Shown: piece by piece, positions 30,199 through 48,289 of the stretch | Position numbering within the stretch: the stretch's first letter is position 1 | How the letters are laid out: every line of letters begins with the position of its first letter | DNA from: Neoroseomonas soli | GTDB lineage: Bacteria > Pseudomonadota > Alphaproteobacteria > Acetobacterales > Acetobacteraceae | DNA: 64,000 nt | NCBI RefSeq assembly: GCF_018129065.1 | Contig: NZ_JAAEDM010000001.1 | Span: forward strand, 62,001-126,000 | Direction: 5' to 3' | The notes under the pieces: generated by a model | What the model saw: only the letters and a program-made list of their open reading frames with translations | The model's database searches: none | What the model was told of the DNA's origin: nothing | Translations under genes and position numbers: made by a program

Positions 30199-30222
30199 TC
30201 TTGTTTCCTCCTTCACCAACGC

Positions 30223-32385
30223 TCAGCCGCCTCGGATGACGAGCGCATCGACCGCCACGCCGCCGTCCTTGCCGAGGATCACGGGGTTCACGTCGATCTC
30301 CGCGATGTCGGAAGACAGATCGGCGATCATCTCCGACACGCGGGCGACCAGCACGCAGAAGCCGTCGATGTCGCACGGCGGAGCGCCCCGTGCGCCATCG
30401 AGCACGCGCCGCATCCGCAGCCCGTCGAGGGCGAGACGCACCTCGGCCGGCGTGACCGGTGCGAGGCGGATGGCGACGTCGCCCATCACCTCCACCAGCG
30501 TGCCGCCGAAGCCGAAGACCACGAGCGGGCCGAACTGCGCATCCTGGCGTGCGCCGACGATCATCTCGATCCCCTGCGGCACCATCCGCTGCACGACGAC
30601 GCCGGCGACGCCCGGCTGATCGTGCACCGCATGGGTTATGGCGTCATAGGCCGCACCGACCGCATCCTCGTCCCGCAGATCGAGCTTCACGCCGCCGATG
30701 TCGGACTTATGCCGGATCTCGGCGGCCTCGACCTTGGCGACGACGGGGAAGCCGATCTCGCGCGCGGCGGCGATGGCCTGCTCCCGTGTCGTGCACAGCC
30801 GTTCTCCGACAACGGGAATGCCGTAGAGCGCCAGCAGCGCCTTGGATTCGCGCTCGGTGAGGGAGGCGCCGGGTGGATGCGCGGCCAGAAGCCGGTGCGA
30901 CGGCCCGGCGGCCGCATCCGGCGCGTGCTCCCGCGGCCTCGCCTCCAGCACCGGGCGTTTCCGCGCCTGGTCGAACCAAAGGCGATACGCGTTCATGCAC
31001 CGGTCGAGCGAACGGAAGACGGACAGCGTCGTGCTGCCGTCATAGACATGCGCGCCGGGCCCTTCATACCACTCGTTCATCCAGACGAGGGTCAGCGGCT
31101 TGTCCAACTCGCCGGCCAGGGCGCTCATCCCGTGGGCGCGCGTGACCGCCGCCTGGCCATGCGCCGAGGGCATCAGCACGGCCACGCTCGCGAAGCCGGG
31201 ATCCTGCGCGAAGCTGCGCACGCATTCGGCATAGAGCGCTTCGTCGCGGATCGACTCCGCCGTGATGTCGGCGGGATTGGCGACGGTGGCGAAGCCGGGC
31301 AGGCGCTGCCGCAGCGCCTCGACGGTCGCGGCGCCGGGCTGCGGCATGGCGAGGCCGTGGCGCTCCGCCTTGTCGGCCGCCATGACGACAGAGCCGCCGG
31401 AACCGGAGAGGATGCCGACGCCCGCGCCTTTCGGCCGCCCCGCGCGGGAGAAGAACAGCGCCGTCTCGAGCAGGCCTTCGAACTGATCCACCTCGATGAC
31501 GCCGGTGCGCTCGAAGACGGCGCGGAAGGATGCCGCGTCGCCGGCCAGCATGCCCGAGTGCGAGAGTGCGGCCCGGCCGCCCGCGGCGGTGACGCCGACC
31601 TTGTAGGCGATGACGGGCTTTCCCGCGCGGAACGCACGGTCGAAGGCTTCGAGCAGGCGGGGGCCACTCGGCACGCTCTCGAACAGGCAGGCGATAGCCT
31701 TGGTATCGGGATCCTCCACCATGAAGGTGATGAGGTCCGCGATGTCCACGTCGCAGGAATTACCTGTCGAGATGAGCCGGCTGAAGCCGACGCCGCGATG
31801 CATCGCCTGGAACACCACGTAGCCCAGCGCGCCGCTCTGCCCGACGAGGCCGATGCCACCGGGCACCATCGGAAGGTCGCGCACGCTCGGCAGGATGTTG
31901 CAGGCCGCGCCGGAACGGACCGCGACGATCCCGGTGCAGTTGGGGCCGAGGATGCGCATGCCTGTCTCGGCCGCCAGGGCGCCGATGCGCCGCTGCATCG
32001 CCGCTCCTTCCGCCGTGCCGATCTCGGCGAAGCCGGAGGAGAAGACGATCGCACTGGGCGTGCCGATCTCCGCGGCCTGGCGCAACACGCCTTCCACCTG
32101 CGCGCCGGGCACCGCAATGCCCACGCAATCCGGCCGTTCCGGCAGGTCGGCGAGGCTGCGGTAACACGGCAGCTCGCCGATCCGATCGTATTGCGGATTG
32201 ATGGGCAGGATGGTGCCGTCGTAGTGCCGCGTCAGGTTCGTGAGGACATTGCCGCCGAAGGAGCCGGGGCGCGGCGAGGCGCCGACGATCGCGATGCGGC
32301 GGGGATCGAGCAGCGGCAGCAGCGAGGCCGCGTCATAGACGCCGCGGGCGGGGCCGGGGCTGGTGATTGCGCCGTCCATGGGCAT
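30223..32385 (-). CDS. ADP-forming acetate/acyl-CoA ligase-family protein (fused CoA-binding and ATP-grasp domains)
   Basis: The 720-residue single-chain acyl-CoA synthetase (NDP-forming) of the Acd/PatZ-without-acetyltransferase type starts with a CoA-binding Rossmann domain (PRRIAIVGASPRPGSFGGNV, IVFSSGFAEIG, GPNCTGIV), then a succinyl-CoA-ligase-like domain with the phosphorylatable His region (ALSHSGMLAGDAASF) and a C-terminal ATP-grasp domain (LYGIPVVGERLCTTREQAIA, FPVVAKVEAAEIRHKSDIGG). It makes an acyl-CoA from acid, ATP and CoA, releasing ADP. The ATG at 32385 touches the SDR stop (TGATG), so the two are coupled; a second Met two codons later is also possible. Substrate unknown, possibly the ligand of the adjacent Bug protein. 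Confidence 0.85.
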   Translation of the reverse strand: MPMDGAITSPGPARGVYDAASLLPLLDPRRIAIVGASPRPGSFGGNVLTNLTRHYDGTILPINPQYDRIGELPCYRSLADLPERPDCVGIAVPGAQVEGVLRQAAEIGTPSAIVFSSGFAEIGTAEGAAMQRRIGALAAETGMRILGPNCTGIVAVRSGAACNILPSVRDLPMVPGGIGLVGQSGALGYVVFQAMHRGVGFSRLISTGNSCDVDIADLITFMVEDPDTKAIACLFESVPSGPRLLEAFDRAFRAGKPVIAYKVGVTAAGGRAALSHSGMLAGDAASFRAVFERTGVIEVDQFEGLLETALFFSRAGRPKGAGVGILSGSGGSVVMAADKAERHGLAMPQPGAATVEALRQRLPGFATVANPADITAESIRDEALYAECVRSFAQDPGFASVAVLMPSAHGQAAVTRAHGMSALAGELDKPLTLVWMNEWYEGPGAHVYDGSTTLSVFRSLDRCMNAYRLWFDQARKRPVLEARPREHAPDAAAGPSHRLLAAHPPGASLTERESKALLALYGIPVVGERLCTTREQAIAAAREIGFPVVAKVEAAEIRHKSDIGGVKLDLRDEDAVGAAYDAITHAVHDQPGVAGVVVQRMVPQGIEMIVGARQDAQFGPLVVFGFGGTLVEVMGDVAIRLAPVTPAEVRLALDGLRMRRVLDGARGAPPCDIDGFCVLVARVSEMIADLSSDIAEIDVNPVILGKDGGVAVDALVIRGG

Positions 32386-33215
32386 CACGTCCAGGACCGC
32401 TTCAGCCAGCGCCCGCCATCCACCGTCATGTCGCATCCGGTGATGAAGTCGCCCGCCGGCGATGCGAGGAACGCGCAGCTCAGCCCGATGTCGTCCGTCT
32501 CCCCGAAGTGGCCGAGCGCCATGCGATTGAGTTCCTTCTCGCCTTCGCCGCGGGCCTCGTAGAGCCGGCGCAGCCCTTCGGTGCCCTCGATGGGACCGGG
32601 AAGGACGTTGTTCACGCGGATGCCGTGCGGGCCCCATTCGACCGCCAGGCTGCGCGTGAGCGCGGTGACGCCCGCCTTCGCCGAGGCGGCATGCGCCGCG
32701 CCCGGCCAGCCCGAGGAGACCTGCGCGAGCGAGATGTTGATGATGCGGCCGCCATAGGGCGAGGCCTTCAGCGCCTTGAAGGCCGTGTGGCAGAAGTTGA
32801 AGGTGCCGTTGAGGTCGATGTCCACCACGGCGCGCCAGCCGTTCGGGGTCATCTCCTCGAACGGACAGTTGAAGTTGCCTGCGGCGTTGTTGACCAGCAC
32901 GTCGAGGCGGCCGAACTCCGCGACGGTCCGCTCGATCACGCCCTGGGTTGCGGCGTAGTCCCGCACATCGGACGCGATGGTGAGGATGCGCGCACCCGAT
33001 GGCGCGAGCCGCTCGGCGGCTTCCTCGAGCTTGTCGGGGCGGCGGCCGGTCAGCACGAGGTTCGCGCCGAGGTCGGCGAAGACGTCCGCGATCCCCAGCC
33101 CGATGCCACTGCTGCCGCCGGTGATCAGGGCGACCCGGCCGGCGAGGGCGTCTCTGCTGAAGACCTGCCGCTTCGGGTGGGCCGCCTCGGCCGACACCCG
33201 TGTCATTGAAGTCAT
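32385..33215 (-). CDS. SDR oxidoreductase resembling 2,4-dienoyl-CoA reductase
   Basis: The 276-residue NADPH-type short-chain dehydrogenase has a cofactor motif ALITGGSSGIGLGIADVFAD and NNAAGNF. In the active site the usual YxxxK is AHAASAKAGVTALTRSLAVE: Lys is kept but the Tyr four residues before it is Ala. This AxxxK pattern with HA-SAKAGV is typical of DECR-type 2,4-dienoyl-CoA reductases, as are NFNCPFEEMTPNGWRAVVDI and EWGPHGIRVNNVLPGPIEGT. It probably reduces a polyunsaturated acyl-CoA produced by the co-transcribed synthetase. The ATG at 33215 has GGGGAA upstream; an alternative Met lies three codons on. Confidence 0.85.
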   Translation of the reverse strand: MTSMTRVSAEAAHPKRQVFSRDALAGRVALITGGSSGIGLGIADVFADLGANLVLTGRRPDKLEEAAERLAPSGARILTIASDVRDYAATQGVIERTVAEFGRLDVLVNNAAGNFNCPFEEMTPNGWRAVVDIDLNGTFNFCHTAFKALKASPYGGRIINISLAQVSSGWPGAAHAASAKAGVTALTRSLAVEWGPHGIRVNNVLPGPIEGTEGLRRLYEARGEGEKELNRMALGHFGETDDIGLSCAFLASPAGDFITGCDMTVDGGRWLKRSWT

Positions 33216-33484
33216 CTGCGTTTCCCCGTTTACGGCACTTTGCGCCTTCGCCCTTGATGACGAGGCGACGCCGTCCCTCCTACCGAACGGACCGCACGGG
33301 ACGCCAATCCATATCGGGTATCGCTCAATACCCATCCGGCGTGCAGGACCTGTCCGGCTATGCCCGGGGGCCGCCTCTGGGCCGCGCTACGGGCCCGCGA
33401 CATTGCGGCGCTAGCGCCTTGGCTGGTTGAAGCAGGCGGGAGCCAGCTCGCGTCTTTCGGCAAGGGCATCAGCGCAGACCTGGC

Positions 33485-33512
33485 CGCCGCCAGGGCGGCG
33501 CCTAATCAGGCG
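33485..33512. terminator. Hairpin cluster at the 3' end of the iclR-type gene
   Basis: CGCCGC (33485-33490) pairs with GCGGCG (33495-33500), and overlapping it CGCCT (33499-33503) pairs with AGGCG (33508-33512) across the stop codon of the minus-strand gene ending at 33506. The two stems are mutually exclusive. They may terminate or stabilise the transcript. The 33216-33484 stretch before it holds no recognisable gene. Confidence 0.3.
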
Positions 33513-34306
33513 TCCTCGAGTTGCCGCGACAGGATCGTCGCTTCGGAAGCGACCTCGGCGCCGATGACGCCGTGCCCGATACGACGCAGTTGCTCGCTCA
33601 CGCCAAGCACGACCAGCCCGTGCGACATCCGGCCGCGCGGCATCACCGGAGCGGTGATGATGGTCACGCCGGCGATGTAGCGGCCCTCGTCCACCGCGTA
33701 TCCCGCCAGCCGCGTCGCCTCGACGTCCGCGCGCCATTCCGCGGGCGTCGGCGGGTTATCCCATCGCACGGTACGGAAGCGCGTCTCGATCTCGCCCCAG
33801 GGATAGCCCCCGAAGGCTGCGATGCACCTGCCGCTGGCGCTCACCAGCGCAGGGTAGCGACTGCCGACATCGGCCTGGAGCCGCAAGGCTTGGCCGGGCC
33901 GCGAGATCGCGACGACGACGATGTGCTCGAGGCTCGCCACCTCGATGCCGATGGCGGTGACGCCGTGCCGGCCCGACAGCCTATCGAGGACCGGCTGGAC
34001 GAGGTTGCTGAAGGGATCCCGCCGCAGCATGCCGCGCGCCAGGGCGACGATGCCGCTCGACAGCGCGTAGCGCTTCGTCTCCGGGTCGAAGGAGACGAGT
34101 TCCTCCGCCACCAACGCCCGCAGGATGTGCAGGCAGGTGCTCGGCACCAGTCGGAGCGATCGCGCGATCGCATGAACGCCGAGCGGCGCTTGGCTGCGGG
34201 AGAGGAGACGCAGGATCGCCGCTGCGCGCGCAACGGCGGGCACCTGCCGAATCACCGCCGCGCGTTCCGACGATGCGGAAGAAGGCTTCGACTCTGGATG
34301 ACGCAT
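33506..34306 (-). CDS. IclR-family transcriptional regulator
   Basis: The 266-residue regulator has an N-terminal winged helix (VARAAAILRLLSRSQAPLGV, HAIARSLRLVPSTCLHILRA) and the IclR effector domain (GRHGVTAIGIEVASLEHIVV, RYPALVSASGRCIAAFGGYP, GYAVDEGRYIAGVTIITAPV). I place the start at 34306 because a strong -10 box (34318-34313, minus strand) lies six bases upstream, so earlier in-frame Met codons would be inside or before the promoter; the transcript appears leaderless. It is divergent from the acyl-CoA ligase operon at 34402 and an operator with three half-sites lies between them, so it very likely controls that operon and itself. Confidence 0.88.
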   Translation of the reverse strand: MRHPESKPSSASSERAAVIRQVPAVARAAAILRLLSRSQAPLGVHAIARSLRLVPSTCLHILRALVAEELVSFDPETKRYALSSGIVALARGMLRRDPFSNLVQPVLDRLSGRHGVTAIGIEVASLEHIVVVAISRPGQALRLQADVGSRYPALVSASGRCIAAFGGYPWGEIETRFRTVRWDNPPTPAEWRADVEATRLAGYAVDEGRYIAGVTIITAPVMPRGRMSHGLVVLGVSEQLRRIGHGVIGAEVASEATILSRQLEDA

Positions 34307-34343
34307 GTTGTCCATATACAACACATGATCGTATTTGACAACA
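34306..34343. promoter_or_regulatory. Candidate IclR operator: palindrome plus a third half-site
   Basis: TGTTGT (34306-34311) and ACAACA (34318-34323) form a perfect inverted repeat with a 6-bp centre; a third half-site ACAACA (34338-34343) follows in direct orientation exactly 20 bp after the second. PcaU and PobR, IclR-family activators, use the same architecture of one palindrome and one directly repeated half-site. The sites overlap the iclR -10 and start codon and the shared -35 region, suiting repression of iclR and control of the ligase operon. Confidence 0.65.
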
Positions 34344-34363
34344 CGAACTGATGCGCGAATAAC
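34313..34363. promoter_or_regulatory. Overlapping divergent promoters of iclR and the ligase operon
   Basis: Plus strand: TTGACA (34335-34340), 17 bp, AATAAC (34358-34363), leading to the ligase ATG at 34402. Minus strand: TTGTCA (34341-34336), 17 bp, TATATG (34318-34313), leading to the iclR ATG at 34306. The two -35 boxes occupy the same seven base pairs (TTGACAA), so only one polymerase can bind at a time. Both spacers are optimal. Confidence 0.6.
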
Positions 34364-34401
34364 TTCTGCCAGGCGGCGACAGCCCCCTGGGGACACGTCC
34401 G

Positions 34402-35964
34402 ATGACACGGCTGACCGACAGCACCGACTACGCCTTCGCGCAGGCGAACTTCTCGCCCGAGCGGCTCTGGGAGTTCTTCGACGGGGATCGGGCGTCGCTG
34501 AACATTGCCCATGAATGCATCGACCGGCACGCGACCGACGACCGCAGGCTCGCGGTGCGCGTGGCGCATGCCGACGGCCGCGACGAAGCCATCACCTTCC
34601 GGGAGATCGCGGATTGGTCCTCCCGCTTCGCGCATTGGCTGGCGGCGCGCGGTGTCGCGCCGGGCGACCGCGTCGCGGTGATGCTCGACCCGTCCCTGCC
34701 GTTCTACGCGGCGATGTTCGGGGCCATGAAGGGCGGCGCGATCGCGGTCCCGCTCTTCACGCTGTTCGGGCCGGAAGGCGTGCGCCTGCGCGTCGCCGAC
34801 TGCACGCCGCGCGTGCTGATCACGAGCGCGGAGAAGGCCGCCTCCGCCGCCGGCATTCCGGGCGTCGAGGTCGTCGTGGCGGATGCGTCCTGGCTCGAGG
34901 CTCTCTCGACCTTCCCGACGTCCTGGACGGTCGCGACGCGCGCCGACGACATGGCGCTATTCCAGTACACCTCGGGAACCACGCGCGAACTGCCCGCGGC
35001 GGTGAAGCACACCCACCGCGCGATCGTCGTCCTGATGCTGGCGGCTCTCTACGGCACCGGCATCCGTCCGGGCGACGAGTTCTTCTGCCCATCGTCGCCG
35101 GCCTGGGGGCATGGCCTCGCCCATGGCACGCTGGCGCCGCTCGCCCTCGGCGTGACCACCGGGACCTATGCCGGCAAGTTCGATCCGGTCCGGCTGATGC
35201 GGGCGATGCAGGATTTCGGCATCACGAACCTGTCTGCCGCGGCGACCCACTACCGGATGATGCGGACCAGCGGCCGCGCCTCCGACTTCCGCTTCGCCAT
35301 CAGGAAGCTGTCCTACACGGGCGAGCCGATCGACGGCGAGACCCTGCGCTTCGTCGACGCGACCTTCGGCGTGCCCGCCTGCAGCATGTACGGCACCACC
35401 GAGGTCGGCGTCGTCCTGGTGAACTACCCGGGGGCGACCGACTTCCCGGTGAAGCCGGGCTCGCTCGGCAAGGCCGTGCCCGGCCTGCGGCTGGAGGTCC
35501 AGCGCGCCGACGGCACGCCCTGCGCCCCCGGCGAGACCGGGGAGATCAAGGTCTGGCGCCGCGGCGAATGGGTGCCGACCAAGGATCTCGGCCGCATCGA
35601 CGAGGATGGCTACTTCTACCACGGGGGTCGGGCGGACGACGTCATCATCTCCGCCGGCTGGACCATGAGCGCGGTCGAGATCGAGGACGTGCTCCTCAAG
35701 CATCCCGACGTGCGCGAGGCCGCGGCGATCGGCGTGCCCGACCAAGTGCGTGGCCAAGTGGTGAAGGCCTTCATCGTCAGCGACCGCCCGGGCGACGAGG
35801 CCTTCACGCGCGAGCTGCAGGACTTCACCCGTGAACGGCTGAGCCAGCACGAATACCCCCGCCAGGTCGCCGTCGTCGCCGAGCTGCCGAAGACCCCCGC
35901 CGGAAAGATCAACCGCAAGGTGCTGCGCGACGCCGAGGCAGCGCGCGCGCCGGCTGCTGCCTAG
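34402..35964 (+). CDS. AMP-dependent acyl-CoA synthetase/ligase (benzoate-CoA-ligase-like class)
   Basis: The 520-residue ANL ligase has a phosphate loop MALFQYTSGTTRELPAAVKH, the motif CSMYGTTEVGVVLVNYPGAT, KDLGRIDEDGYFYHGGRADD with VIISAGWTMSAVEIEDVLLK, and the C-terminal LPKTPAGKINRKVLRDAEAA with its catalytic Lys. The Thr-Arg-Glu-Leu in the loop departs from the common TG-PK sequence. Related proteins activate aromatic, cyclic or branched acids. As first gene behind an IclR-controlled promoter it likely commits an imported acid to the pathway encoded by the following dehydratase, CoA transferase and carboxylase genes. Confidence 0.87.
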   Translation: MTRLTDSTDYAFAQANFSPERLWEFFDGDRASLNIAHECIDRHATDDRRLAVRVAHADGRDEAITFREIADWSSRFAHWLAARGVAPGDRVAVMLDPSLPFYAAMFGAMKGGAIAVPLFTLFGPEGVRLRVADCTPRVLITSAEKAASAAGIPGVEVVVADASWLEALSTFPTSWTVATRADDMALFQYTSGTTRELPAAVKHTHRAIVVLMLAALYGTGIRPGDEFFCPSSPAWGHGLAHGTLAPLALGVTTGTYAGKFDPVRLMRAMQDFGITNLSAAATHYRMMRTSGRASDFRFAIRKLSYTGEPIDGETLRFVDATFGVPACSMYGTTEVGVVLVNYPGATDFPVKPGSLGKAVPGLRLEVQRADGTPCAPGETGEIKVWRRGEWVPTKDLGRIDEDGYFYHGGRADDVIISAGWTMSAVEIEDVLLKHPDVREAAAIGVPDQVRGQVVKAFIVSDRPGDEAFTRELQDFTRERLSQHEYPRQVAVVAELPKTPAGKINRKVLRDAEAARAPAAA

Positions 35965-35991
35965 ACAATCAGGACCAGGAGAGGACACGCC

Positions 35992-37146
35992 ATGCCCGAC
36001 ACCAACATGCCAGAGCCGTCCAACCGGCTCTTCCCGAAGATCACCGACCAGGCCCTGGACGACCTCCGTTCACGCATCGGCAAGCGCATCGAGAACACCA
36101 TCGAGCCCTGGTGCCACGAGGCGACGCGCGACAACATCCGGCACTACGCGCATGGCATCGGTGACGACAACCCGCTGTGGTGCGACCCCGAATACGCGGA
36201 AAGGAGCATCCACGGCGGCGTCGTCGCGCTGCCGAGCTTCCTCTTCACCACCAGCCGCATCATCTCCGGCTATGTCGGCGGCCTCCCGGGCGTGCACGCC
36301 ATGTGGTCGGGCGCAGACTGGCGCTGGCACCGCTGGGTGCGCCGCAACGAGCGGATCACGACCCAGGCCCATCTGGCGGAACTGGTCGAGCACGAGACCG
36401 CCTTCGCCGGCCGTGCGATCCGTCAGGTCTATCACGTCGATTTCTACGGCGAGAACGGCGACAAGGTCGCCGATGCGGAGAGCTGGTGCTTCCGCACCGA
36501 CCGCGACGCGGCGCGCGAGACCGGCACCAAGTACAAGGACGTGAAGGCGAAGCCGCAGCGGCGCTACACCGACGAGGAACTCGCCAAGGTCTGGCGCCTC
36601 TATTCCGAAGAGCGTCCGCGCGGCGACACGCCCCGCTACTTCGAGGACGTGCAGGTCGGCGACACCCTGCCGACCATGCCGAAGGGCCCGATGACGGTCA
36701 CCGGCTTCATCGCCTACGCGCAAGGCTGGGGCGGCCTCTACATCCGCGCCAACCGCCTGGCCTGGAAGCAGGTGCAGGCGCATCCGGGTCTCGGCATCCG
36801 CAACCGCTTCAACATCCCGGACTGCCCCGAGCGCGTGCACTGGGAACCGGAAATGGCGCTGATGGTGGGCGCGCCCGGTGCCTATGACTACGGCCCCGAG
36901 CGCTGCTCCTGGCTCACGCACCACATGACCGACTGGATGGGTGACCACGGCTTCCTTGTGCGCGCCACCAGCAAGCTGCGCCGCCACAATCCGGAGGGCG
37001 ACCTGCTCTTCATCGACGGCAAGGTGACCGGCAAGCGCGTGGAGAACGGCCGCCACCTGATCGATATCGAGCAGGAGGCGCGCAACCAGGACGGCGAGCT
37101 TTCCGTGGTCGGGGAAGGCACCGTCGCGCTGCCATCGCGCGCCTAG
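35992..37146 (+). CDS. Double-hotdog acyl-CoA dehydratase (FAS1-like/MaoC domains)
   Basis: The 384-residue protein has two hotdog halves. The first carries the MaoC-type catalytic sequence IRHYAHGIGDDNPLWCDPEY (Asp, with Trp in place of the usual His), and the second begins RYFEDVQVGDTLPTMPKGPM then TVTGFIAYAQGWGGLYIRAN. Such FAS1-like dehydratase-domain proteins of about 380 residues hydrate or dehydrate CoA esters in catabolic clusters. It starts 28 bp after the ligase behind a GGAGAGG ribosome-binding site. The replaced His leaves the exact reaction open. Confidence 0.78.
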   Translation: MPDTNMPEPSNRLFPKITDQALDDLRSRIGKRIENTIEPWCHEATRDNIRHYAHGIGDDNPLWCDPEYAERSIHGGVVALPSFLFTTSRIISGYVGGLPGVHAMWSGADWRWHRWVRRNERITTQAHLAELVEHETAFAGRAIRQVYHVDFYGENGDKVADAESWCFRTDRDAARETGTKYKDVKAKPQRRYTDEELAKVWRLYSEERPRGDTPRYFEDVQVGDTLPTMPKGPMTVTGFIAYAQGWGGLYIRANRLAWKQVQAHPGLGIRNRFNIPDCPERVHWEPEMALMVGAPGAYDYGPERCSWLTHHMTDWMGDHGFLVRATSKLRRHNPEGDLLFIDGKVTGKRVENGRHLIDIEQEARNQDGELSVVGEGTVALPSRA

Positions 37147-37173
37147 CGGCAGCGGCCAGGGAGGATCCGGATC

Positions 37174-38142
37174 ATGAAAAGACGAACGATCATGCTGGGC
37201 GCCGCCCCGGCGGTCCTGGCAGCGCGCTCGGCACGGGGGCAGGACGGCTTTCCGACCCGCACGGTCCGGATCCTCGTCCCGGTCGCGCCCGGCGGGATCA
37301 CCGATGCGCTCGCGCGCCTCGTCGCGACGGGACTGCAACAGCGCCTCGGCCAGACCGTGGTGGTGGAGAACCGTCCCGGCGGCAACGGGATCGTCGCCTC
37401 CGAGGCCGTGGTGCGGTCCGAGCCCGACGGGCACACGATGGTGCTGGTGATCGCCGCCCACGCCATCAATCCGAGCCTGACGCCCAACCTGCCCATCCGG
37501 CCACTGGAGGACCTGGCGCCGGTCACGCAGGTGGCCGGCATTCCGCTCGTGCTCGTCACCTCCGCGGCGCTTCCGCCGCGGACCCTGGCGGAGTTCGTCG
37601 CCTATGCGCGGGCGGCGCCGGAGCCATTGCTCTACGCCTCCTCCGGCGCGGGTTCCGGCGCGCATATCGCGGGCGAGATGTTCGCCCGCGCCATCGGCGC
37701 ACCGATGCAGAACGTCATCTACCGGGGTACGGCGCAGTCGCTTCCGGATCTCTTCAGCGGTCGCGTCGCGATGATCCTCGACACCGTGCAGACGATGCTG
37801 CCGCATATCCGCGAGGGCCGGTTGCGCGGCCTGGCCATCTGCGCCGACCAGCGCTGGCCCGCCGCCTCCGACATCCCCACCACCGACGAGGCCGGCCTGC
37901 CCGGATTTCGTGCCGGCTCCTGGGCCGGGCTTCTGGCCCCCACGCGCACGCCGCGCGTGGTGCTGGACCGCGTCCAGCGCGAGACCGCAGATGTGCTGCG
38001 CCAGCCAGAGACGCAGCAACGCTTCCTGGACTACGGCGTGGTGCCCGTCGGCAGCACGCCGCAGGCCTTTGATGCCTTCATCCGCACCGAGGCCGAACGC
38101 TATCGCCGGGTGATCCGCGAGGCGGGCATCCGCGCCGACTGA
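37174..38142 (+). CDS. Bug-family (TctC) periplasmic solute-binding protein
   Basis: The 322-residue binding protein has a leader MKRRTIMLGAAPAVLAARSA (arginine pair at the start), mature DGFPTRTVRILVPVAPGGIT, then VENRPGGNGIVASEAVVRSE, PDGHTMVLVIAAHAINPSLT and PTTDEAGLPGFRAGSWAGLL. It lies 28 bp after the double-hotdog gene in the IclR-controlled operon and 52 bp before a second Bug gene, so this operon encodes two different receptors, perhaps for two related acids or for uptake and sensing. No membrane partner in the window. Confidence 0.9.
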   Translation: MKRRTIMLGAAPAVLAARSARGQDGFPTRTVRILVPVAPGGITDALARLVATGLQQRLGQTVVVENRPGGNGIVASEAVVRSEPDGHTMVLVIAAHAINPSLTPNLPIRPLEDLAPVTQVAGIPLVLVTSAALPPRTLAEFVAYARAAPEPLLYASSGAGSGAHIAGEMFARAIGAPMQNVIYRGTAQSLPDLFSGRVAMILDTVQTMLPHIREGRLRGLAICADQRWPAASDIPTTDEAGLPGFRAGSWAGLLAPTRTPRVVLDRVQRETADVLRQPETQQRFLDYGVVPVGSTPQAFDAFIRTEAERYRRVIREAGIRAD

Positions 38143-38193
38143 CCACACCACGCACCGCGGTCAACGCGGGCGTGCAGAGAGGAGGAACCGCCC

Positions 38194-39150
38194 ATGCGGC
38201 GAAGGACAGTGCTCGGATTGCCTGCGCTTCTTGCCTCGGCCATGCCCGCCGCGGCGCAGTCCTGGCCGGCACGTCCGGTCAGGATCGTCGTGCCCTACCC
38301 CGCGGGGCAGGGCACCGACATCTTCGGGCGGCGCTTCGCCGAATACTACCAGCGCCGCTTCGGCCAGCCCTTCGTGGTGGAGAACCGCGCGGGCGCGGGC
38401 GGCAACATCGGCTCGGCGGTCGTCGCGCGCGCCGAGCCGGACGGCTACACCCTGTTGTGGGGCACCAATGCGACGCATGCGGCGAACGAGTTCATGTTCG
38501 CTTCGCTCGGCTACGATCCCAGCGCGGACTTCGCTCCGATCGCGGCGATCCTCAGCCTGGGCATGCTGCTCTACACCGGGCAGGAATCCCCCATCCGCTC
38601 GCTCGCCGACCTCCTCGCGGCTGCGCGCGCGCGGCCTGGCCAGATCTCGATCGGCGTGCCGAGCACGACCTCCCGCGTCGCGGCCGAGATCCTCCGCCGC
38701 GCTGCCGGCGTCGCGATCCAGCAGGTTCCCTACAATGGCAGCGCCCAGGCCCTGACCGGCGCGCTGCGGGGTGACGTGCAGGCCGTGGTCGATACCATCG
38801 CGAGCTCGCTCGGCACCTTGCAGGGTGGGCGCATTCGGCCGCTCGGCGTCTCGCTTGGCCGGCGTTCGGGCTCGCTTCCCGACGTTCCGACCTTCCGCGA
38901 GCAGGGCGTCGATGCGGAGGTGACCGCCTGGAACGCCTTCTTCGCGCCGAAGGGCACGCCGGCCGGGATCGTCGGCGCGCTGAACGAGGCCTCCAACGCC
39001 GCGCTCACCGACCCCGCGCTGCGGGCGGGCGTGATCGCCGCAGGCGCCGAGCCGCTTGGCGGCACGCCCGAGGATCTCGTCACGCTGATGCGCGTCGATC
39101 GCGAGAAGTGGAAGCCGGTCATCGAGAGCCTCGGCCTGCGGGCCAGTTGA
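38194..39150 (+). CDS. Bug-family (TctC) periplasmic solute-binding protein
   Basis: The 318-residue binding protein has a leader MRRRTVLGLPALLASAMPAA with a twin-arginine start, then QSWPARPVRIVVPYPAGQGT. The ligand-loop glycine pair GG of most Bugs is GQ here (PAGQGTD), a departure seen in some subgroups that may alter specificity. VENRAGAGGNIGSAVVARAE, PDGYTLLWGTNATHAANEF and VPTFREQGVDAEVTAWNAFF follow. It is tandem with the previous Bug gene but clearly diverged from it in sequence, so not a recent duplication. The CoA transferase starts 9 bp downstream. Confidence 0.9.
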   Translation: MRRRTVLGLPALLASAMPAAAQSWPARPVRIVVPYPAGQGTDIFGRRFAEYYQRRFGQPFVVENRAGAGGNIGSAVVARAEPDGYTLLWGTNATHAANEFMFASLGYDPSADFAPIAAILSLGMLLYTGQESPIRSLADLLAAARARPGQISIGVPSTTSRVAAEILRRAAGVAIQQVPYNGSAQALTGALRGDVQAVVDTIASSLGTLQGGRIRPLGVSLGRRSGSLPDVPTFREQGVDAEVTAWNAFFAPKGTPAGIVGALNEASNAALTDPALRAGVIAAGAEPLGGTPEDLVTLMRVDREKWKPVIESLGLRAS

Positions 39151-39159
39151 GGTGCATCG

Positions 39160-40383
39160 GTGAGCGAACCCGCCAAGCCCTGGGGCGGCCCGCTTGCCGG
39201 CCTGCGCGTCATCGACCTGACGCGCGTGCTGGCGGGGCCGCTCGCGGCGCAGTTCCTTGGCGACCTCGGCGCCGAGATCCTGAAGGTCGAGCCGCCCGGC
39301 AAGGGTGACGAGACCCGGGGCTTCGCGCCGTTCGTCGGCGGCGAGAGCCACTACTTCCTCGGCCTCAACCGCGGCAAGCGAAGCCTGGTGCTGGACCTGC
39401 GCAAGCCGGAGGGCGCCGACATCCTGCGCCGGCTCGTCGCCACGGCCGACGTGCTGGTCGAGAACTTCCGGCCCGGGGTGATGGAGCGCCTCGGCCTTGG
39501 CGCCGAGGCGCTGATGGCGCTGAACCCACGTCTGATCTACTGCGCCATCAGCGGCTTCGGCATGACCGGCCCGCTGCGCGACAAGCCGTCCTTCGACATC
39601 GTGACCCAGGCGCTGACGGGTGTCCTGAGCGTCAATGGAGAGCCCGGCCACCCGCCGGCCAAGCTCGGCCTGCCGATCGGCGACATGTCGGGCGGGATCT
39701 TCGGCGCGATCGCGATCCTGTCCGCCCTGCACGAACGCACGACGACGGGCCGCGGGCGGCTGATCGACGTCAGCCTTTACGACGGCACCATGTCGCTGCT
39801 GGGCTATCTCTCCCAGCTCGCCTTCCTGAGCGGGGAGGATCCGCGGCCGATGGGCTCCGCGCATCCGAGCGTCGTGCCCTATGACGGCTTTCCCGCACGC
39901 GACGGAACCATCATCATCGCCTGCCTCGCCGACGGCTTCTGGCCGAAGCTGTGCAACGCGCTGGGCTGTTCCGAGATGGGCGCCGACCCGCGCTACGCGA
40001 CCATGGCGCTGCGCCGCGAGCACCGCGCCGAAATCGAACCGCGCATCGCCGCCATCACCGCGACGCGCACGGTCGCGGAATGGCGGCGCCTGCTCGAGCA
40101 GCACGACGTCCCGCACGCGCCGGTGCTCGGCGTGACTGCCGCGCTGTCCCATCCCCACGCCGCGGCCCGCGAGATGGTGGTGGAAGTGGAGCACCCGGCT
40201 GCGGGCCCGCTGCGCATGCTCGGCCGGCCGATCAAGTTCCCCGGCGAGCGGCAGGCGCCGCTCGAGCCGCCGCCCATGCTCGGGCAGCACACCGTGGAGG
40301 TGCTGCGGCGCGAGCTAGGCCTCACCGAGGAACAGGTGGAGAAGCTGCGGGGCCTCGGCGTCATCCACGGCCCCGCCGCCTGA
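39160..40383 (+). CDS. CaiB/BaiF (class III) CoA transferase
   Basis: The 407-residue class III CoA transferase starts at GTG 39160, then [20 protein letters not shown] and [20 protein letters not shown], the family N-terminus. The catalytic Asp is in the block [40 protein letters not shown] and SDMSGGIF-like [20 protein letters not shown] complete the fold. It moves CoA between an acyl-CoA (often succinyl-CoA) and a free acid. Within this operon it gives a second way, besides the ligase, to activate an imported acid, or it recycles CoA from a late intermediate. Confidence 0.9.
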
Positions 40384-40396
40384 CAGGAATTCTTCG

Positions 40397-42004
<1,608 letters not shown>

Positions 42005-42012
42005 GGGGCGCC

Positions 42013-44028
42013 ATGTTCCGCAAGATCCTGATCGCCAACCGCGGCGAGATCGCCTGTCGCGTCATCGCCACCGCGCGGCGTCTCGGCATCGCCACGGTCG
42101 CGGTGTATTCGGAGGCCGATGCCGGTGCGCGGCACACGCGCCTCGCCGACGAGGCCTGGCCCATCGGCCCCGCCCCGGCGCGCGAGAGCTACCTCTCCAT
42201 CCCGAAGATCATCGACGTTGCGCGCCGTTCGGGCGCTGAGGCAATCCATCCCGGCTACGGCTTCCTGTCCGAGAACGCCACCTTCGCCGAGGCCTGCGCC
42301 GAGGCCGGCATCGTCTTCATCGGCCCGCCGCCCGCCGCGATCCGGGCCATGGGGTCGAAGGCGGAATCGAAGGCGCTGATGGAACGGTCCGGCGTCCCCC
42401 TGGTGCCGGGCTACCATGGCGAAGCGCAGGATCCCGCCCTGCTGGCGGATGCCGCGGCACGGATCGGCTTTCCCGTGCTGATCAAGGCGAGTGCGGGTGG
42501 CGGCGGCAAGGGCATGCGTGTCGTCGACACTCCGGATGACTTCGCTGCGGCGCTGGAAGGCGCGCGGCGGGAGGCCCTCGCCTCCTTCGGCGACGATCGC
42601 GTGCTGATCGAGAAGTATCTCACCCGGCCGCGCCACATCGAGATCCAGGTCTTCGCGGACGGCCACGGCAACACCGTCTCGCTGTTCGAGCGGGACTGCT
42701 CCATCCAACGCCGCCATCAGAAGGTGCTGGAGGAAGCGCCCGCGCCAGGCATGGATCCGGCGCGCCGGCAGGTGATGGGCGAGGCCGCCGTGGCGGCGGC
42801 ACGCGCCGTCGGCTATGTCGGCGCCGGCACGGTCGAGTTCATCGCTGAAGGCGACGCCTTCTACTTCATGGAGATGAACACCCGCCTGCAGGTCGAGCAT
42901 CCGGTCACCGAGATGGTCACGGGCCTCGACCTGGTGGAATGGCAGTTCCGCGTGGCGGCCGGCGAGCCCCTGCCGCTGCCACCGGAGCGCCTCGCGATCC
43001 GCGGCCATGCCATCGAGGCGCGCGTCTATGCCGAGGACCCGGGCCGCGACTTCCTCCCCTCCACCGGACGTCTCACGCATCTGCGCCAGCCGCGCGAGAC
43101 GCCCGGCGAGGTGCGGGTCGACACCGGCGTGCGCCAGGGCGATGCGATCACGCCGCATTACGATCCGATGATCGCCAAGCTGATCGTCTGGGGCGCAGAC
43201 CGTCCCGCCGCGCTGCGGCGCCTTGCGGCTGCGCTCGCGGAGTACGAGGTCGTCGGCGTGGAGACGAATCTCGGCCTGCTGCGCGCCATCGCCGCGCATC
43301 CTGCTTTCGGTGCCGCGGAACTCGACACGGGCTTCATCGCGCGCCATGGCGCGCAGCTTCTGCCGGACGCGCAACCCTCGTCGCCCGATGAATCGGTCGT
43401 GCTGTCTGCCGCTGCGCTGGCCGCCGTGCGCGAGCAGGACGCGGCGATCCAGGCCGCGGCACGCGCCAGCGGCGATCCCTGGTCGCCCTGGGCCGCCGTG
43501 GACGCCTGGCGCATGAACGGCGACGGCTACCAGGATCTCCATTTCCGTCGCGGCGACGGCACCACCGTCGCGCTACGAACGCATCCTCTGCCGGATGGCG
43601 GCTTCCGCGTGGACCTGCCGGCCGGTCCGGTCACCGCCAGACTGGACGACGATGCCGACGGCCTGCTGCTGACGATGGACGGCGTGTCGCGGCGGCTCAG
43701 CGTGACGCGCCGCGGCGACGCGATCGCCGTCATCATCGCCGGGCGCAACCACGCGCTGACGCAGGTGGATCCACTGGCGCCACCGCGCGTCGAGGCTGCC
43801 GGCGGCGACCGCGTCACGGCGCCGATCCCCGCGCGGGTGACGCGCATCCTCGTCGCTCCCGGCGACAGCGTTCCGAAGAACGCGCCGCTGCTGGTCATCG
43901 AGGCGATGAAGATGGAACTGACACTCCGCGCACCAATGGAGGGGACCATCGCGCGGGTACTCCATGCCGTCGGCGAGATGGTCGAGGAAGGGACCGAGCT
44001 GGTGACCTTCGCAGCGGCCGCTGACTGA
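42013..44028 (+). CDS. mccA: Acyl-CoA carboxylase, biotin carboxylase/biotin carrier subunit (methylcrotonyl-CoA carboxylase alpha-like)
   Basis: The 671-residue alpha chain combines biotin carboxylase and carrier. The carboxylase part shows MFRKILIANRGEIACRVIAT, IHPGYGFLSENATFAEACAE, the ATP-binding LIKASAGGGGKGMRVVDTPD, ERDCSIQRRHQKVLEEAPAP and FMEMNTRLQVEHPVTEMVTG. The C-terminus carries the biotinylation motif VIEAMKMELTLRAPMEG near residue 633. A middle domain of about 110 residues links to the beta chain, as in MCC. The start at 42013 is after GAGGGGCG. It ends the operon; an IstB scar with the repeat copy begins 12 bp downstream. Confidence 0.9.
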   Translation: MFRKILIANRGEIACRVIATARRLGIATVAVYSEADAGARHTRLADEAWPIGPAPARESYLSIPKIIDVARRSGAEAIHPGYGFLSENATFAEACAEAGIVFIGPPPAAIRAMGSKAESKALMERSGVPLVPGYHGEAQDPALLADAAARIGFPVLIKASAGGGGKGMRVVDTPDDFAAALEGARREALASFGDDRVLIEKYLTRPRHIEIQVFADGHGNTVSLFERDCSIQRRHQKVLEEAPAPGMDPARRQVMGEAAVAAARAVGYVGAGTVEFIAEGDAFYFMEMNTRLQVEHPVTEMVTGLDLVEWQFRVAAGEPLPLPPERLAIRGHAIEARVYAEDPGRDFLPSTGRLTHLRQPRETPGEVRVDTGVRQGDAITPHYDPMIAKLIVWGADRPAALRRLAAALAEYEVVGVETNLGLLRAIAAHPAFGAAELDTGFIARHGAQLLPDAQPSSPDESVVLSAAALAAVREQDAAIQAAARASGDPWSPWAAVDAWRMNGDGYQDLHFRRGDGTTVALRTHPLPDGGFRVDLPAGPVTARLDDDADGLLLTMDGVSRRLSVTRRGDAIAVIIAGRNHALTQVDPLAPPRVEAAGGDRVTAPIPARVTRILVAPGDSVPKNAPLLVIEAMKMELTLRAPMEGTIARVLHAVGEMVEEGTELVTFAAAAD

Positions 44029-44576: not shown

Positions 44577-45551
44577 GTGACGGGGATCGGACGACGCGGG
44601 ACGTTGAGCGTCATGCTTGCCATGCCTGCGATGCGCGCGGCGGCACAGCCTGCCTGGCCGGATCGACCCGTGCGGCTCATCGTGCCCTTCCCGCCGGGCG
44701 GTTCAAACGACATCGTCGCGAGGTTCCTTGCGGAAGCGCTGGGCAACCGCCTGGGCCAGCCCTTCCTCGTGGAGAACCGCGGCGGCGCGGGCGGCAACAT
44801 CGGCGCCGACGCGGTCGCGAAGGCGGCGCCGGATGGCCATACGCTGCTCGTCAGCGCGCCACCCGCCCTTGTCATCAACGAGCACCTCTACCGCAGCATG
44901 CCCTTCAGTCCCGAGCGGGACCTGATGCCCGTCGCGCTCGTCGCCTCAGTGCCGATCGTGCTCATCGTGCCGGCCGACAGTCCTGCGCGCAGCCTGGGGG
45001 ATCTCATCGCCATGGCGCGGCGCGAGCCGAGCCGGCTCTCCTTCGGCTCCTCGTCGATCGGCGGCACGAATCACCTCGCGGGCGAGTTGCTGAAGAGCAT
45101 GGCCGGCATCGATATCGTGCATGTGCCCTACCGCGGGGCGGCGCCGGCCATGACGGACCTCATCGCGGGTCGCCTGCAGCTCTATTTCGACAACATGCCC
45201 GGCGTTCTGCCGCAGGTGCGTGACGGACGCGTGCGCGCGCTGGCGGTCGCAGGCTCGCAACGCGCTGCCGCGATGCCCGATCTGCCGACCATGGCCGAAG
45301 CGGGCCTGCCGGGCTTCGAGGCATCGTCCTGGTTCGGCATGGCCGCCCCGGCCGGCACCGCGCGGGCGCTGGTCGCCCGCATCAACGGCGCGGTGCTGGC
45401 CGCGTTGGCCGAACCCGCGTTGCGCGAGCGACTTGCCGGCGCGGGAGCCGAGCCCGGCACGCTCGACGCCGAGGGATTCGCGCGCTTCGTCGCCGCCGAA
45501 CGCGATCGCTGGGGCCGTGTCGTGCGTGCCTCGGGCGCCCGCGCGGATTAG
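44577..45551 (+). CDS. Bug-family (TctC) periplasmic solute-binding protein
   Basis: The 324-residue binding protein starts at GTG 44577 behind GGGGAGGACAAGA, a very strong ribosome-binding site; the longer open frame upstream is IS debris. Leader TGIGRRGTLSVMLAMPAMRA, mature AWPDRPVRLIVPFPPGGSND, then VENRGGAGGNIGADAVAKAA, PDGHTLLVSAPPALVINEHL and HVPYRGAAPAMTDLIAGRLQ. Its TAG stop overlaps the stop of the convergent alpha/beta-hydrolase gene (TTAG), so the two transcripts are complementary at their ends. Ligand unknown. Confidence 0.9.
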   Translation: MTGIGRRGTLSVMLAMPAMRAAAQPAWPDRPVRLIVPFPPGGSNDIVARFLAEALGNRLGQPFLVENRGGAGGNIGADAVAKAAPDGHTLLVSAPPALVINEHLYRSMPFSPERDLMPVALVASVPIVLIVPADSPARSLGDLIAMARREPSRLSFGSSSIGGTNHLAGELLKSMAGIDIVHVPYRGAAPAMTDLIAGRLQLYFDNMPGVLPQVRDGRVRALAVAGSQRAAAMPDLPTMAEAGLPGFEASSWFGMAAPAGTARALVARINGAVLAALAEPALRERLAGAGAEPGTLDAEGFARFVAAERDRWGRVVRASGARAD

Positions 45552-47206: not shown

Positions 47207-47302
47207 AATCGGCTGCATTGCCGCGGCGACCCTCATGGACCTACCGTGGCGCTTGAAGACCGGGCCCATCCGAGGCGCCGGCGCGAGGGAGTTGGAGACG
47301 CC

Positions 47303-48289
47303 ATGACCCGCAAGTCCGTCGGCGTTCGCGTTGGCCGCCGCACCGCCCTCGGCCTCACGGCCGTACTCGTTTCCGCACCCGTGCGCGCGCAGGCTTGGCC
47401 GATGCGGCCCGTGCGCCTGGTGGTACCCTTCCCGCCGGGCGGGCCGGCGGACGCGATCGGGCGCATCCTGGGCGAAAGGCTCGCGGAGATCTGGGGCCAG
47501 CCGGTCATCATCGACAATCGCGGCGGCGCCGGCGGCAACATAGGCGCGGATGTCGTCGCGAAATCCGCGCCCGACGGGCACACGCTGCTGCTCGCCGCAT
47601 CGTCGCATGTGCAGGGCGCGGCACTCTACCGCCGCCTCGCCTTCGACCCGATCCAGGATTTCGCGCCGATCACGCAGGTGGCCTACTACAGCCTGGTCGT
47701 CGTCGTTCATCCCTCGGTCCCTGCGAACAACCTGCAGGAATTCGAGGCGCTGCTTCGCGCCAATCCCGGCCAGGTGACCATGACCTCGGCCGGCGTCGGC
47801 ACGCCCACGCACCTGACGGCGGAACTCTTTCGCCTCCGGGCCGGGGTGCAGTTCACCCACGTTCCCTTCCAGGGCGCGGCGCCGGCGCATACGGCGCTGC
47901 TCGCCGGCCAGGTGCAGGCGATGTTCCACAACCCGGTTCTTGCCGTCCCTGCGGTGCAGGCGGGGCGGCTGCGTGCTATCGCCACCACGGGGGCCAGGCG
48001 TGCCGCGGCGCTGCCGGACACGCCGACGCTGGCCGAATCGGGCTATCCAGGCTTCGACGCCGGCACCTGGTATGCGGTGCTCGGGCCTGCCGGCGTGCCA
48101 GCGCCGGTGGTGGCGAAGATCGACGCCGACATGCGCCGCGTCGTGGCGCTCCCCGCGGTGCGCGAGCGCTTTTCCACCCAGTCGCTCGAGACGCGCGACC
48201 TCGGGCCTGAGCCGCTGGCCGCCCTCATGCGGGCCGAACTGACGAGTTGGGGCGCGCTGATCCAGCGCCTTGGCATCCGCCAGGACTGA
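47303..48289 (+). CDS. Bug-family (TctC) periplasmic solute-binding protein
   Basis: The 328-residue binding protein has a leader VGRRTALGLTAVLVSAPVRA with arginine pair, mature AQAWPMRPVRLVVPFPPGGP, then DNRGGAGGNIGADVVAKSAP, DGHTLLLAASSHVQGAALYR and HVPFQGAAPAHTALLAGQVQ. Start at 47303 after GTTGGAGA. It is divergent from the SDR/hydrolase-fold pair and convergent, with a 9-bp gap, to a second alpha/beta hydrolase gene, so it sits in the middle of what seems to be one small functional cluster. Ligand unknown. Confidence 0.9.
   Translation: MTRKSVGVRVGRRTALGLTAVLVSAPVRAQAWPMRPVRLVVPFPPGGPADAIGRILGERLAEIWGQPVIIDNRGGAGGNIGADVVAKSAPDGHTLLLAASSHVQGAALYRRLAFDPIQDFAPITQVAYYSLVVVVHPSVPANNLQEFEALLRANPGQVTMTSAGVGTPTHLTAELFRLRAGVQFTHVPFQGAAPAHTALLAGQVQAMFHNPVLAVPAVQAGRLRAIATTGARRAAALPDTPTLAESGYPGFDAGTWYAVLGPAGVPAPVVAKIDADMRRVVALPAVRERFSTQSLETRDLGPEPLAALMRAELTSWGALIQRLGIRQD

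Follow-up and report, generated by a model that had tools for sequence, protein, structure and literature searches.

Within the 64,000-nucleotide stretch of Neoroseomonas soli DNA analysed here (the window), a set of genes predicted to serve the uptake and activation of an acid ends in a 3-methylcrotonyl-CoA carboxylase (MCC), with no isovaleryl-CoA dehydrogenase (IVD) beside it. A domain profile search found all eight genes at the positions and in the families put forward in a sequence-only reading of the locus. An IclR-type regulator (33506–34306, minus strand; HTH_IclR and IclR_C) lies divergent to seven plus-strand genes, which encode an AMP-forming acyl-CoA ligase of the acetate/medium-chain ACS type (34402–35964; AMP-binding and AMP-binding_C), a double-hotdog MaoC/FAS1-like dehydratase (35992–37146; PF13452, FAS1_DH_region), two TctC/Bug receptors (both PF03401; receptor 1 at 37174–38142 and receptor 2, the conserved one, at 38194–39150), a class III (CaiB/BaiF) CoA-transferase (39160–40383; CoA_transf_3, PF02515, over its whole length at 442 bits), the MCC carboxyltransferase (beta) subunit (40397–42004), and the MCC biotin-carboxylase/BCCP (alpha) subunit (42013–44028; Biotin_carb_N/C, BT_MCC_alpha, and Biotin_lipoyl). 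For the last of these the start at 41890 was replaced by the ATG at 42013. The intergenic gaps from the ligase through the carboxyltransferase are 27, 27, 51, 9, and 13 nt, and the genes are therefore read as one operon. Scans of the sequence for sigma-70 promoters (one promoter-like site against a mean of 0.5 in shuffles) and terminators (two against 3.2) gave results at the level of chance.

On its sequence the carboxylase is an MCC, not an enzyme of the geranyl type, and carboxylation of 3-methylcrotonyl-CoA is predicted. MCC is marked by an active-site phenylalanine of the N-domain, immediately preceded by a three-residue insertion, whereas geranyl-CoA carboxylase (GCC) has a glycine at this site and lacks the insertion (Jurado 2015, PMC4673880). 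The MCC phenylalanine corresponds to residue 163 of the window beta subunit, matched by alignment and not by the numbering of Jurado 2015, and in an alignment with a GCC-like protein both the phenylalanine and the insertion are present alike in the window copy and in a further copy on contig C30 of the same genome. The beta subunit aligns ungapped to PaMCC-beta (3u9r; 867 bits) from residue 3 and includes the N-terminal stretch that PCC-beta lacks, and the alpha subunit contains the MCC-alpha BT domain (PF21139, 62 bits against a cut-off of 31). When the eight Carboxyl_trans loci of the genome were compared with the GCC-like query by tblastn, the two MCCs matched at 46% and four others at 25–28%, with the remaining two unmatched.

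The copy on C30 forms a canonical IVD-MCCbeta-MCCalpha locus. That the window MCC is the only one of the genome, the finding named in the sequence-only reading as counting against its proposal, is thereby rejected, and the earlier suggestion of a distinct pathway gains support. The same reading had described the leucine partners as absent, which holds for the window operon (no IVD, AUH, or HMG-CoA lyase (HMGL)) but not for the operons of relatives. The N. eburnea operon (L028) also encodes an AUH-type hydratase, and the operons of two Pseudoroseomonas (L031 and L033) encode both AUH and HMGL, in the order ligase-DH-Bug-CoAT-MCCbeta-AUH-MCCalpha-HMGL. Elsewhere in the family, ordinary leucine operons such as L157 and L158 have the order IVD-MCCbeta-(AUH)-MCCalpha-(HMGL); judged by gene order, the L031/L033 arrangement is a leucine operon with IVD replaced by the upstream module, and the lack of AUH and HMGL genes in the window operon looks like a local loss. 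The HMGL of L031 and L033 scores above the NCBIfam cut-off with HMG-CoA lyases as best PDB matches, and the AUH-type hydratases fall below the cut-offs of their best models. No IVD was found beside the module-joined MCCs. As IVD is absent from the operon while the other partners occur in the operons of relatives, entry would be at 3-methylcrotonyl-CoA.

The probable role of the gene set is to import a leucine-like hydroxy acid and convert it to a normal intermediate of leucine breakdown. For uptake, the Bug receptor would present the carboxylate. The CoA ester would be formed by the AMP ligase, which would prime the process, and by the class III CoA-transferase, which would recycle CoA, and the dehydratase would remove the beta-substituent to give 3-methylcrotonyl-CoA. 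The operon MCC would convert this to 3-methylglutaconyl-CoA, and AUH and HMGL, in the operon in some relatives and elsewhere in N. soli, would yield acetyl-CoA and acetoacetate. Delivery of 3-methylcrotonyl-CoA by the module to the operon MCC appears reasonably likely; that the whole is a catabolic operon, with a front module that makes this intermediate and a back half that carboxylates it, we regard as evenly poised. Gene content, carboxylase type, the second MCC with IVD, the layouts in relatives, and a conserved palindrome are read from the DNA, and from these we infer the substrate, the direction of each reaction, and the regulation. The substrate tentatively favoured is 3-hydroxy-3-methylbutyrate (beta-hydroxyisovalerate), because a ligase and a 3-hydroxyacyl-CoA dehydratase would reach 3-methylcrotonyl-CoA without IVD. 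Slightly more tentative still is the proposal of a new pathway, in which a widespread IclR-controlled module with a tertiary-hydroxyl-removing MaoC-type dehydratase has been wired to a dedicated MCC in Roseomonas relatives. A narrow search of the open-licence literature returned no account of bacterial 3-hydroxy-3-methylbutyrate/3-hydroxyisovalerate breakdown or of this gene set.

The front module (IclR, AMP ligase, dehydratase, class III CoA-transferase, and Bug receptor) is, from its gene neighbourhoods, a stand-alone unit, found in Roseomonas, Bradyrhizobium, Variovorax, Achromobacter, Bordetella, and Rokubacteria. Among the relatives compared (the best 80 of 85 dehydratase matches, overlapping in part with a family sample of 200 genomes), the ligase is present in 79 loci, and an IclR gene and a TctC gene lie no more than 7 kb from the dehydratase in 60 and 53 loci, respectively. 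Receptor 1 looks special to the N. soli locus: it finds its best match in no gene adjoining the dehydratase in these 80 relatives, the sole best match being about 8 kb away in L084. Two receptors were therefore rejected as a defining feature. The best PDB relative of the ligase is 5u2a, with further matches including 4-hydroxybutyrate-CoA ligase and ACSM2A; the CoA-transferase is closest to YfdE and SUGCT in the PDB and, below cut-off in each case, to the NCBIfam models for succinate-glutarate, oxalate, and succinyl-CoA:mesaconate transferases. Plasmids of Comamonas and Pseudosulfitobacter also carry the module, together with a PaaI thioesterase, and plasmids of Sphingobium carry part of it; no neighbouring gene on these six of 35 matching plasmids names the substrate.

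The competitor that survives best, although unlikely, is that module and MCC are neighbours and not partners, the module degrading an unrelated acid with a leucine MCC operon parked behind it, perhaps borrowing its promoter. MCC adjoins the dehydratase module in only six of the 80 loci, all of Roseomonas type, with one further locus truncated by a contig end. The other 74 show no adjoining MCC, and neither do 57 of the 63 loci that are flanked by 4 kb or more on each side. In favour of delivery by the module, a close MCC is encoded in 70 of the 80 module genomes and one more has an MCC cut at a contig end; against it, the nine without a close full MCC, all MAGs by title, include all five Rokubacteria. 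Roseomonas sp. GC11 (L037, G207) has the module alone, its sole MCC lying elsewhere with IVD and AUH, and in G016 the MCC has outlived a decayed module, AUH, and HMGL and so serves something else there, presumably leucine. The operon MCC is the only close one in four of eight Roseomonas-type genomes (G203, G204, G205, and G206), with IVD on another contig than the operon in three of these and not found in G204 at E<=1e-100, which counts in favour of delivery by the module. For the neighbours reading, the presence of IVD in G203, G205, and G206 means that their operon MCC must handle leucine as well, provided that leucine is degraded. Across the family sample, MCC was found in 129 of 200 genomes, comprising 11/11 with the module (at least 60% identity; the dehydratase match of G051 is in two pieces and the MCC of G094 in fragments) and 118/189 without it, a contrast of about 0.007 by hand arithmetic that ignores relatedness and genome size, and as proof this co-occurrence is weak.

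Against mere proximity stand two observations, the first being that MCCs of two lineages occupy the same place. In a tree of 51 MCC pairs (leaving out L183, from the genome of L036, and L186 and L190, which lack a long alpha subunit), with IVD labels assigned by tblastn without an identity floor (L187 on a 33% match), the module-joined MCCs fell into two clades, both also containing unjoined copies. The MCC of L032 groups with the unjoined L168/L169 (support 1.0 for beta and 0.999 for alpha), and the other joined MCCs group with the unjoined L144/L145 (0.907 for beta). In the ligase-DH tree L032 sits among other Pseudoroseomonas modules (0.962). By these trees the joined MCCs belong to two lineages, and the second clade could represent in-place replacement of the MCC rather than a new joining.

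The second observation is that Neoroseomonas retains its second MCC behind a single-copy operator despite having an IVD-linked one. The predicted operator, TGTTGT-N6-ACAACA (34306–34323), lies between iclR and the ligase gene; the iclR start at 34306 is probably to be preferred over a GTG at 34408, because the conserved operator sequence falls within the longer reading. With up to one mismatch the motif matches once in the window against 0.00 expected, and the exact palindrome occurs at one site in the whole genome (G000), giving no second target there that would indicate a wider IclR regulon. The looser TTGT-N5-9-ACAA is found upstream of the ligase in 58/60 loci with an IclR gene as compared with 2/16 without (chance expectation 0.0175 per stretch), four of the 80 loci being left out: L041, with no ligase match, and L038, L066, and L105, which begin too close to a contig end. 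The exact palindrome is present in 10 of 26 genomes, at one site in each, as compared with 2 of 26 for the pattern read backwards; judged from coordinates, the site is at the module in nine of the ten. The exact pattern, absent from the other 16 genomes, misses variants, and a one-base variant is present at the module in L033 and L036. From these data we infer that IclR controls the operon through this single palindrome.

In the dehydratase, the replacement of the usual histidine by tryptophan, as claimed from the sequence, is real but limited to the N-terminal repeat, where D58 is present and W63 occupies the histidine position; the C-terminal repeat keeps His283, and the notion of a degenerate dehydratase was not borne out. 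W63, D277, and His283 are each invariant in 81/81 aligned homologues, and in a second alignment of 38 sequences, including a 42%-identical relative, His283 is invariant and W63 nearly so. The usual hydratase motif is D-x-N-P-x-H. Its Asp and His are thus found in the C-terminal repeat, with a D277-His283 spacing one residue longer, and these two residues we take to be catalytic; His283 aligned weakly to the 'PIHWD' histidine of HadB-type dehydratases (phmmer, E 0.03–0.4). An AlphaFold2 model has the hotdog fold (pTM 0.81, mean pLDDT 76.3), with low confidence at 282–298 and pLDDT <50 around His283, and its best Foldseek matches are 5i7n (E 5.4e-17), 4v12, MeaC (8hgn), and 4e3e. As the nearest folds of the model include mesaconyl- and itaconyl-CoA hydratases, other dehydratase substrates would also fit.

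An improbable variant keeps the same route with another leaving group. The pathway would then start from beta-valine (3-amino-3-methylbutyrate) or from an isovalerate with some other beta-substituent, and the double-hotdog enzyme would be an ammonia lyase or similar. In Pseudomonas sp. SBV1 the beta-valine cluster indeed has the same layout, but its enzymes are of types unlike those of N. soli, and the top fold-search matches are (de)hydratases. Slightly less probable again is that the dehydratase acts after MCC as a hydratase of a dicarboxylyl-CoA, e.g. 3-methylglutaconyl-CoA, with the ligase and CoA-transferase activating 3-methylcrotonate or a related acid. This would suit the presence of MeaC, a mesaconyl-CoA hydratase, and PaIch, an itaconyl-CoA hydratase, among the Foldseek neighbours, the lack of AUH in the window operon, and the resemblance of the CoA-transferase to dicarboxylate CoA-transferases; however, L028, L031, and L033 encode an AUH-type hydratase and the dehydratase in one operon, and most module loci have no MCC. 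The geranyl-type or cyclic enoyl-CoA carboxylase of a terpenoid or alicyclic pathway, as first proposed, is highly improbable: GCC is homologous to MCC, and the top-scoring model for the AUH-type hydratases of relatives, though below its cut-off, is one for gamma-carboxygeranoyl-CoA hydratase, but the phenylalanine and insertion denote MCC, no GCC was among the eight Carboxyl_trans matches, and beta subunits 85–90% identical to the window copy adjoin IVD in other family members.

If the 3-hydroxy-3-methylbutyrate route is correct, it would give a function to a widespread module, explain the two MCCs of some Acetobacteraceae, and make the lower leucine pathway a hub whose front ends can be exchanged; it also singles out one operator and one class of substrate as the first to examine.

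Several known systems share parts of this arrangement. The dehydratase has the double-hotdog fold of the MaoC-type hydratases MeaC (8hgn), PaIch (8huc, 8khg), and 5i7n (Foldseek), but at 11–17% identity and with W63 in its N-terminal repeat. GCC, a gamma-carboxylating biotin enzyme, has the domain plan of the window carboxylase and differs in the glycine and missing insertion. In the carnitine Cai and bile-acid Bai sets a ligase, a class III CoA-transferase, and a dehydratase act together, on other substrates and without a carboxylase. The Liu leucine operon (IVD, MCC, AUH, and HMG-CoA lyase) has orthologous MCC subunits, with AUH and HMGL recurring in the sister loci, whereas N. soli has a ligase, dehydratase, receptor, and CoA-transferase instead of IVD, and an IclR gene and palindrome in front. 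A parallel in layout, and one with experimental support, is the Bva cluster for beta-valine in Pseudomonas sp. SBV1 (BvaA, BvaB1/B2), with ligase, lyase, MCC, hydratase, and HMG-CoA lyase (Otzen 2015, PMC4619459). Its ligase is phenylacetate-CoA-ligase-like and its lyases are of the crotonase type, whereas N. soli, compared with Bva by description, has a ligase matching ACS-type models and structures, a MaoC/FAS1-like dehydratase (PF13452), a class III CoA-transferase, and a Bug receptor; in both, a CoA ligase and a beta-eliminating enzyme adjoin MCC, and the entry point is 3-methylcrotonyl-CoA, in N. soli by prediction.

The cluster at 33506-44028 comprises a divergent IclR gene and seven + strand genes, in the order AMP ligase, MaoC/FAS1-like dehydratase, two Bug receptors, class III CoA-transferase and two biotin carboxylase subunits, which confirms the gene set of the sequence-only reading. 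The genes from the ligase through the carboxyltransferase are separated by gaps of 27, 27, 51, 9, and 13 nt, with the biotin-carboxylase subunit starting at 42013, in a genome of 5.24 Mb (216 contigs, 99.3% complete). Just upstream, a divergent set (29212-33335, - strand) resembles a separate operon for acid activation; it encodes an SDR, an NDP-forming acyl-CoA synthetase (ATP-grasp_5, Succ_CoA_lig) and a further TctC receptor. Five TctC/Bug receptor genes lie within 20 kb (29212-30219, 37174-38142, 38194-39150, 44601-45551, and 47246-48289).

The beta subunit of the carboxylase aligns without gaps to 3-methylcrotonyl-CoA carboxylase (MCC)-beta of Pseudomonas aeruginosa (867 bits). By the rule of Jurado et al. 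(2015; PMC4673880), MCC carries a Phe in the N-domain with a three-residue insertion directly before it, whereas geranyl-CoA carboxylase (GCC) has Gly at this site. Because the numbering in that paper differs from the PDB chain, the site was assigned by aligning the sequences with a GCC-like protein that scores 614 bits against GCC 5ikl; in this alignment both the window protein and a second copy on another contig, C30, carry the insertion and Phe. A search with the GCC-like query found no GCC-like copy among the eight Carboxyl_trans loci of the genome; the two MCCs matched at 46% identity, four loci at 25-28%, and two were unmatched. The geranyl-type option raised previously is thus rejected, and on these residues the carboxylase is assigned as an MCC.

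The suggested check for a second mcc cluster located one on C30, in the usual leucine arrangement of ligase, isovaleryl-CoA dehydrogenase (IVD), MCC-beta and MCC-alpha, with a beta subunit 75% identical to that of the window. MCC-betas 85-90% identical to the window copy adjoin IVD in other Acetobacteraceae, and the window enzyme is therefore an ordinary leucine-type MCC found in an uncommon setting. The family sample contains two further genomes of the genus (G104 and G160), and in each the single close MCC is C30-type and accompanied by IVD. The leucine partners reported absent are indeed missing from the window operon, but IVD is present on C30, a methylglutaconyl-CoA-type hydratase (AUH) in the Neoroseomonas eburnea operon (L028), and both AUH and HMG-CoA lyase (HMGL) in two Pseudoroseomonas operons (L031 and L033); the AUH assignments are matches below the models' cut-offs. 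The HMGL-like gene of the window's genome is on C32 (264.7 bits, cut-off 246), and its closest, putative AUH-like gene, on C26, is 42% identical to that of L031. By eye, the former adjoins a CaiB-type CoA-transferase-like gene (L009:1486-3602).

The front half of the cluster is a stand-alone module. A dehydratase scan of genome contigs, with the best 80 of 85 relatives retained, placed within 7 kb of the dehydratase a ligase at 79 loci, IclR at 60, a TctC receptor at 53, a class III CoA-transferase at 50, and MCC at six; for the 63 of these loci flanked by 4 kb or more on each side, the counts were 63, 54, 46, 43, and 6, respectively. A PaaI-like thioesterase family is present in 24 loci. Among these 80, the best dehydratase matches in named species are those of N. 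eburnea (96%) and N. lacus (91%), and the module is also carried by, among others, Bradyrhizobium, Variovorax, Achromobacter, Bordetella and Rokubacteria. On plasmids of Sphingomonas and Mycobacterium, dehydratase homologues of 61-66% identity (L110, L112) have no directly adjoining ligase gene. A Cupriavidus dehydratase (L113, 37% identical) lies near two CoA-transferases, a CoA ester lyase and a pyruvate carboxylase, and may belong to a different dicarboxylate pathway.

A close MCC (72% identity or more, in some cases fragmented) was found in 70 of the 80 module genomes from the best 80 of 85 relatives, and one further copy is cut at a contig end. The nine without one (G210, G255, G257-G260, G267, G277, G279), which count against the module feeding an MCC, are all MAGs by title and include five Rokubacteria (G255, G257-G260); short MCC fragments occur in G267 (73%) and G279 (64%). 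The nearest rokubacterial carboxylases are 36-42% identical, and those from G255, G257, G258, and G259, on alignment, lack the MCC Phe. Rokubacterial carboxyltransferases at L192:4984-6324 and L193-L195 (~40% identical to MCC) have a three-residue insertion with Ala at the Phe site, and may on sequence form a separate carboxylase subfamily. MCC is common in the family sample as a whole (129/200 genomes), and is found in 11/11 of those with the module at 60% identity or above.

Among the best 80 of 85 relatives, MCC is joined to the module at six loci (L028, L029, L031, L032, L033, L036), all Roseomonas-type, and the window is a further case. At L030 the contig ends 41 residues into an MCC-beta, and in Roseomonas sp. 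GC11 (L037) the module stands alone, with MCC located beside IVD elsewhere. In L028 the AUH sits between the MCC subunits, and with the AUH and HMGL of L031 and L033, the full version of the operon is therefore IclR, divergent from ligase-dehydratase-Bug-CoA-transferase-MCCbeta-AUH-MCCalpha-HMGL. Ordinary family operons read IVD-MCCbeta-AUH-MCCalpha-HMGL (L157, L158), or are shorter. The operon MCC is the sole close MCC in four genomes (G203-G206), and no IVD was found in G204 at E≤1e-100. The P. wenyumeiae IVD lies elsewhere, by eye next to keto-acid oxidoreductase-like and ABC permease genes.

Trees built from 51 MCC pairs divide the joined copies into two clades: L032 groups with L168 and L169 (support 1.0 for beta, 0.999 for alpha), and the remainder with L144 and L145 (0.907 for beta), of which the alpha tree supports a four-member group (L144, L036, L033, L031) and one larger group. 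L144, L145, L168, and L169 have no joined module. A ligase-dehydratase tree of 15 loci instead places L032 among other Pseudoroseomonas modules (0.962), with unjoined modules (L143; L034 and L035; L037) scattered over several positions, so that one line of modules is paired with MCCs of two lines. These trees would fit either two or more joinings, or one joining followed by in-place replacement. At L144:5196-9961 (G016), decayed receptor, CoA-transferase, AUH and HMGL pieces flank full-length MCC genes, indicating that the module can disappear while MCC stays.

A palindrome, TGTTGTCCATATACAACA, at 34306-34323 is the sole match in the window (0.00 expected) and the sole exact site in its genome. 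An exact match occurs once apiece in 10 of the 26 genomes searched, by coordinates at the module in nine of these (the tenth being G248); a control pattern matched in 2/26. The looser TTGT-N5-9-ACAA lies upstream of the ligase at 60 of the 76 loci that could be tested, against a background of 0.0175; these comprise 58/60 with an IclR gene nearby vs 2/16 without. The palindrome, a predicted operator, thus goes hand in hand with the IclR gene.

The dehydratase had been described as atypical, with Trp in place of His. Across 81 aligned sequences the N-repeat does have an invariant W63, along with D58, N60, and P61, but the C-repeat retains an invariant His283, together with D277. One repeat without His is common in fused hydratases. 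When a 42%-identical relative is included, His283 is still invariant, and W63 and D277 nearly so; in phmmer, His283 pairs weakly with the His of HadB-type enzymes (E 0.03-0.4). A structure model (38 sequences, mean pLDDT 76.3 with values below 50 at 282-298, pTM 0.81) resembles the double-hotdog dehydratases 5i7n and 4v12, MeaC, 4e3e and PaIch.

The operon is a real, uncharacterised pathway, partly as proposed, albeit one with a normal MCC and a probable entry at 3-methylcrotonyl-CoA. This compound is the product of IVD and, since the module occupies the position of IVD, it would be expected to supply the same. The ligase and a 3-hydroxyacyl-CoA dehydratase could form it from 3-hydroxy-3-methylbutyrate, and the substrate is probably a beta-substituted isovalerate. 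A comparable plan is seen in the beta-valine cluster, where, as shown by Otzen et al. (2015; PMC4619459), a ligase and a lyase convert beta-valine to 3-methylcrotonyl-CoA beside MCC, hydratase and HMGL genes. As described there, its front enzymes belong to other families than those of the module, and the beta-valine system is thus a parallel to the module-MCC operon rather than a member of it.
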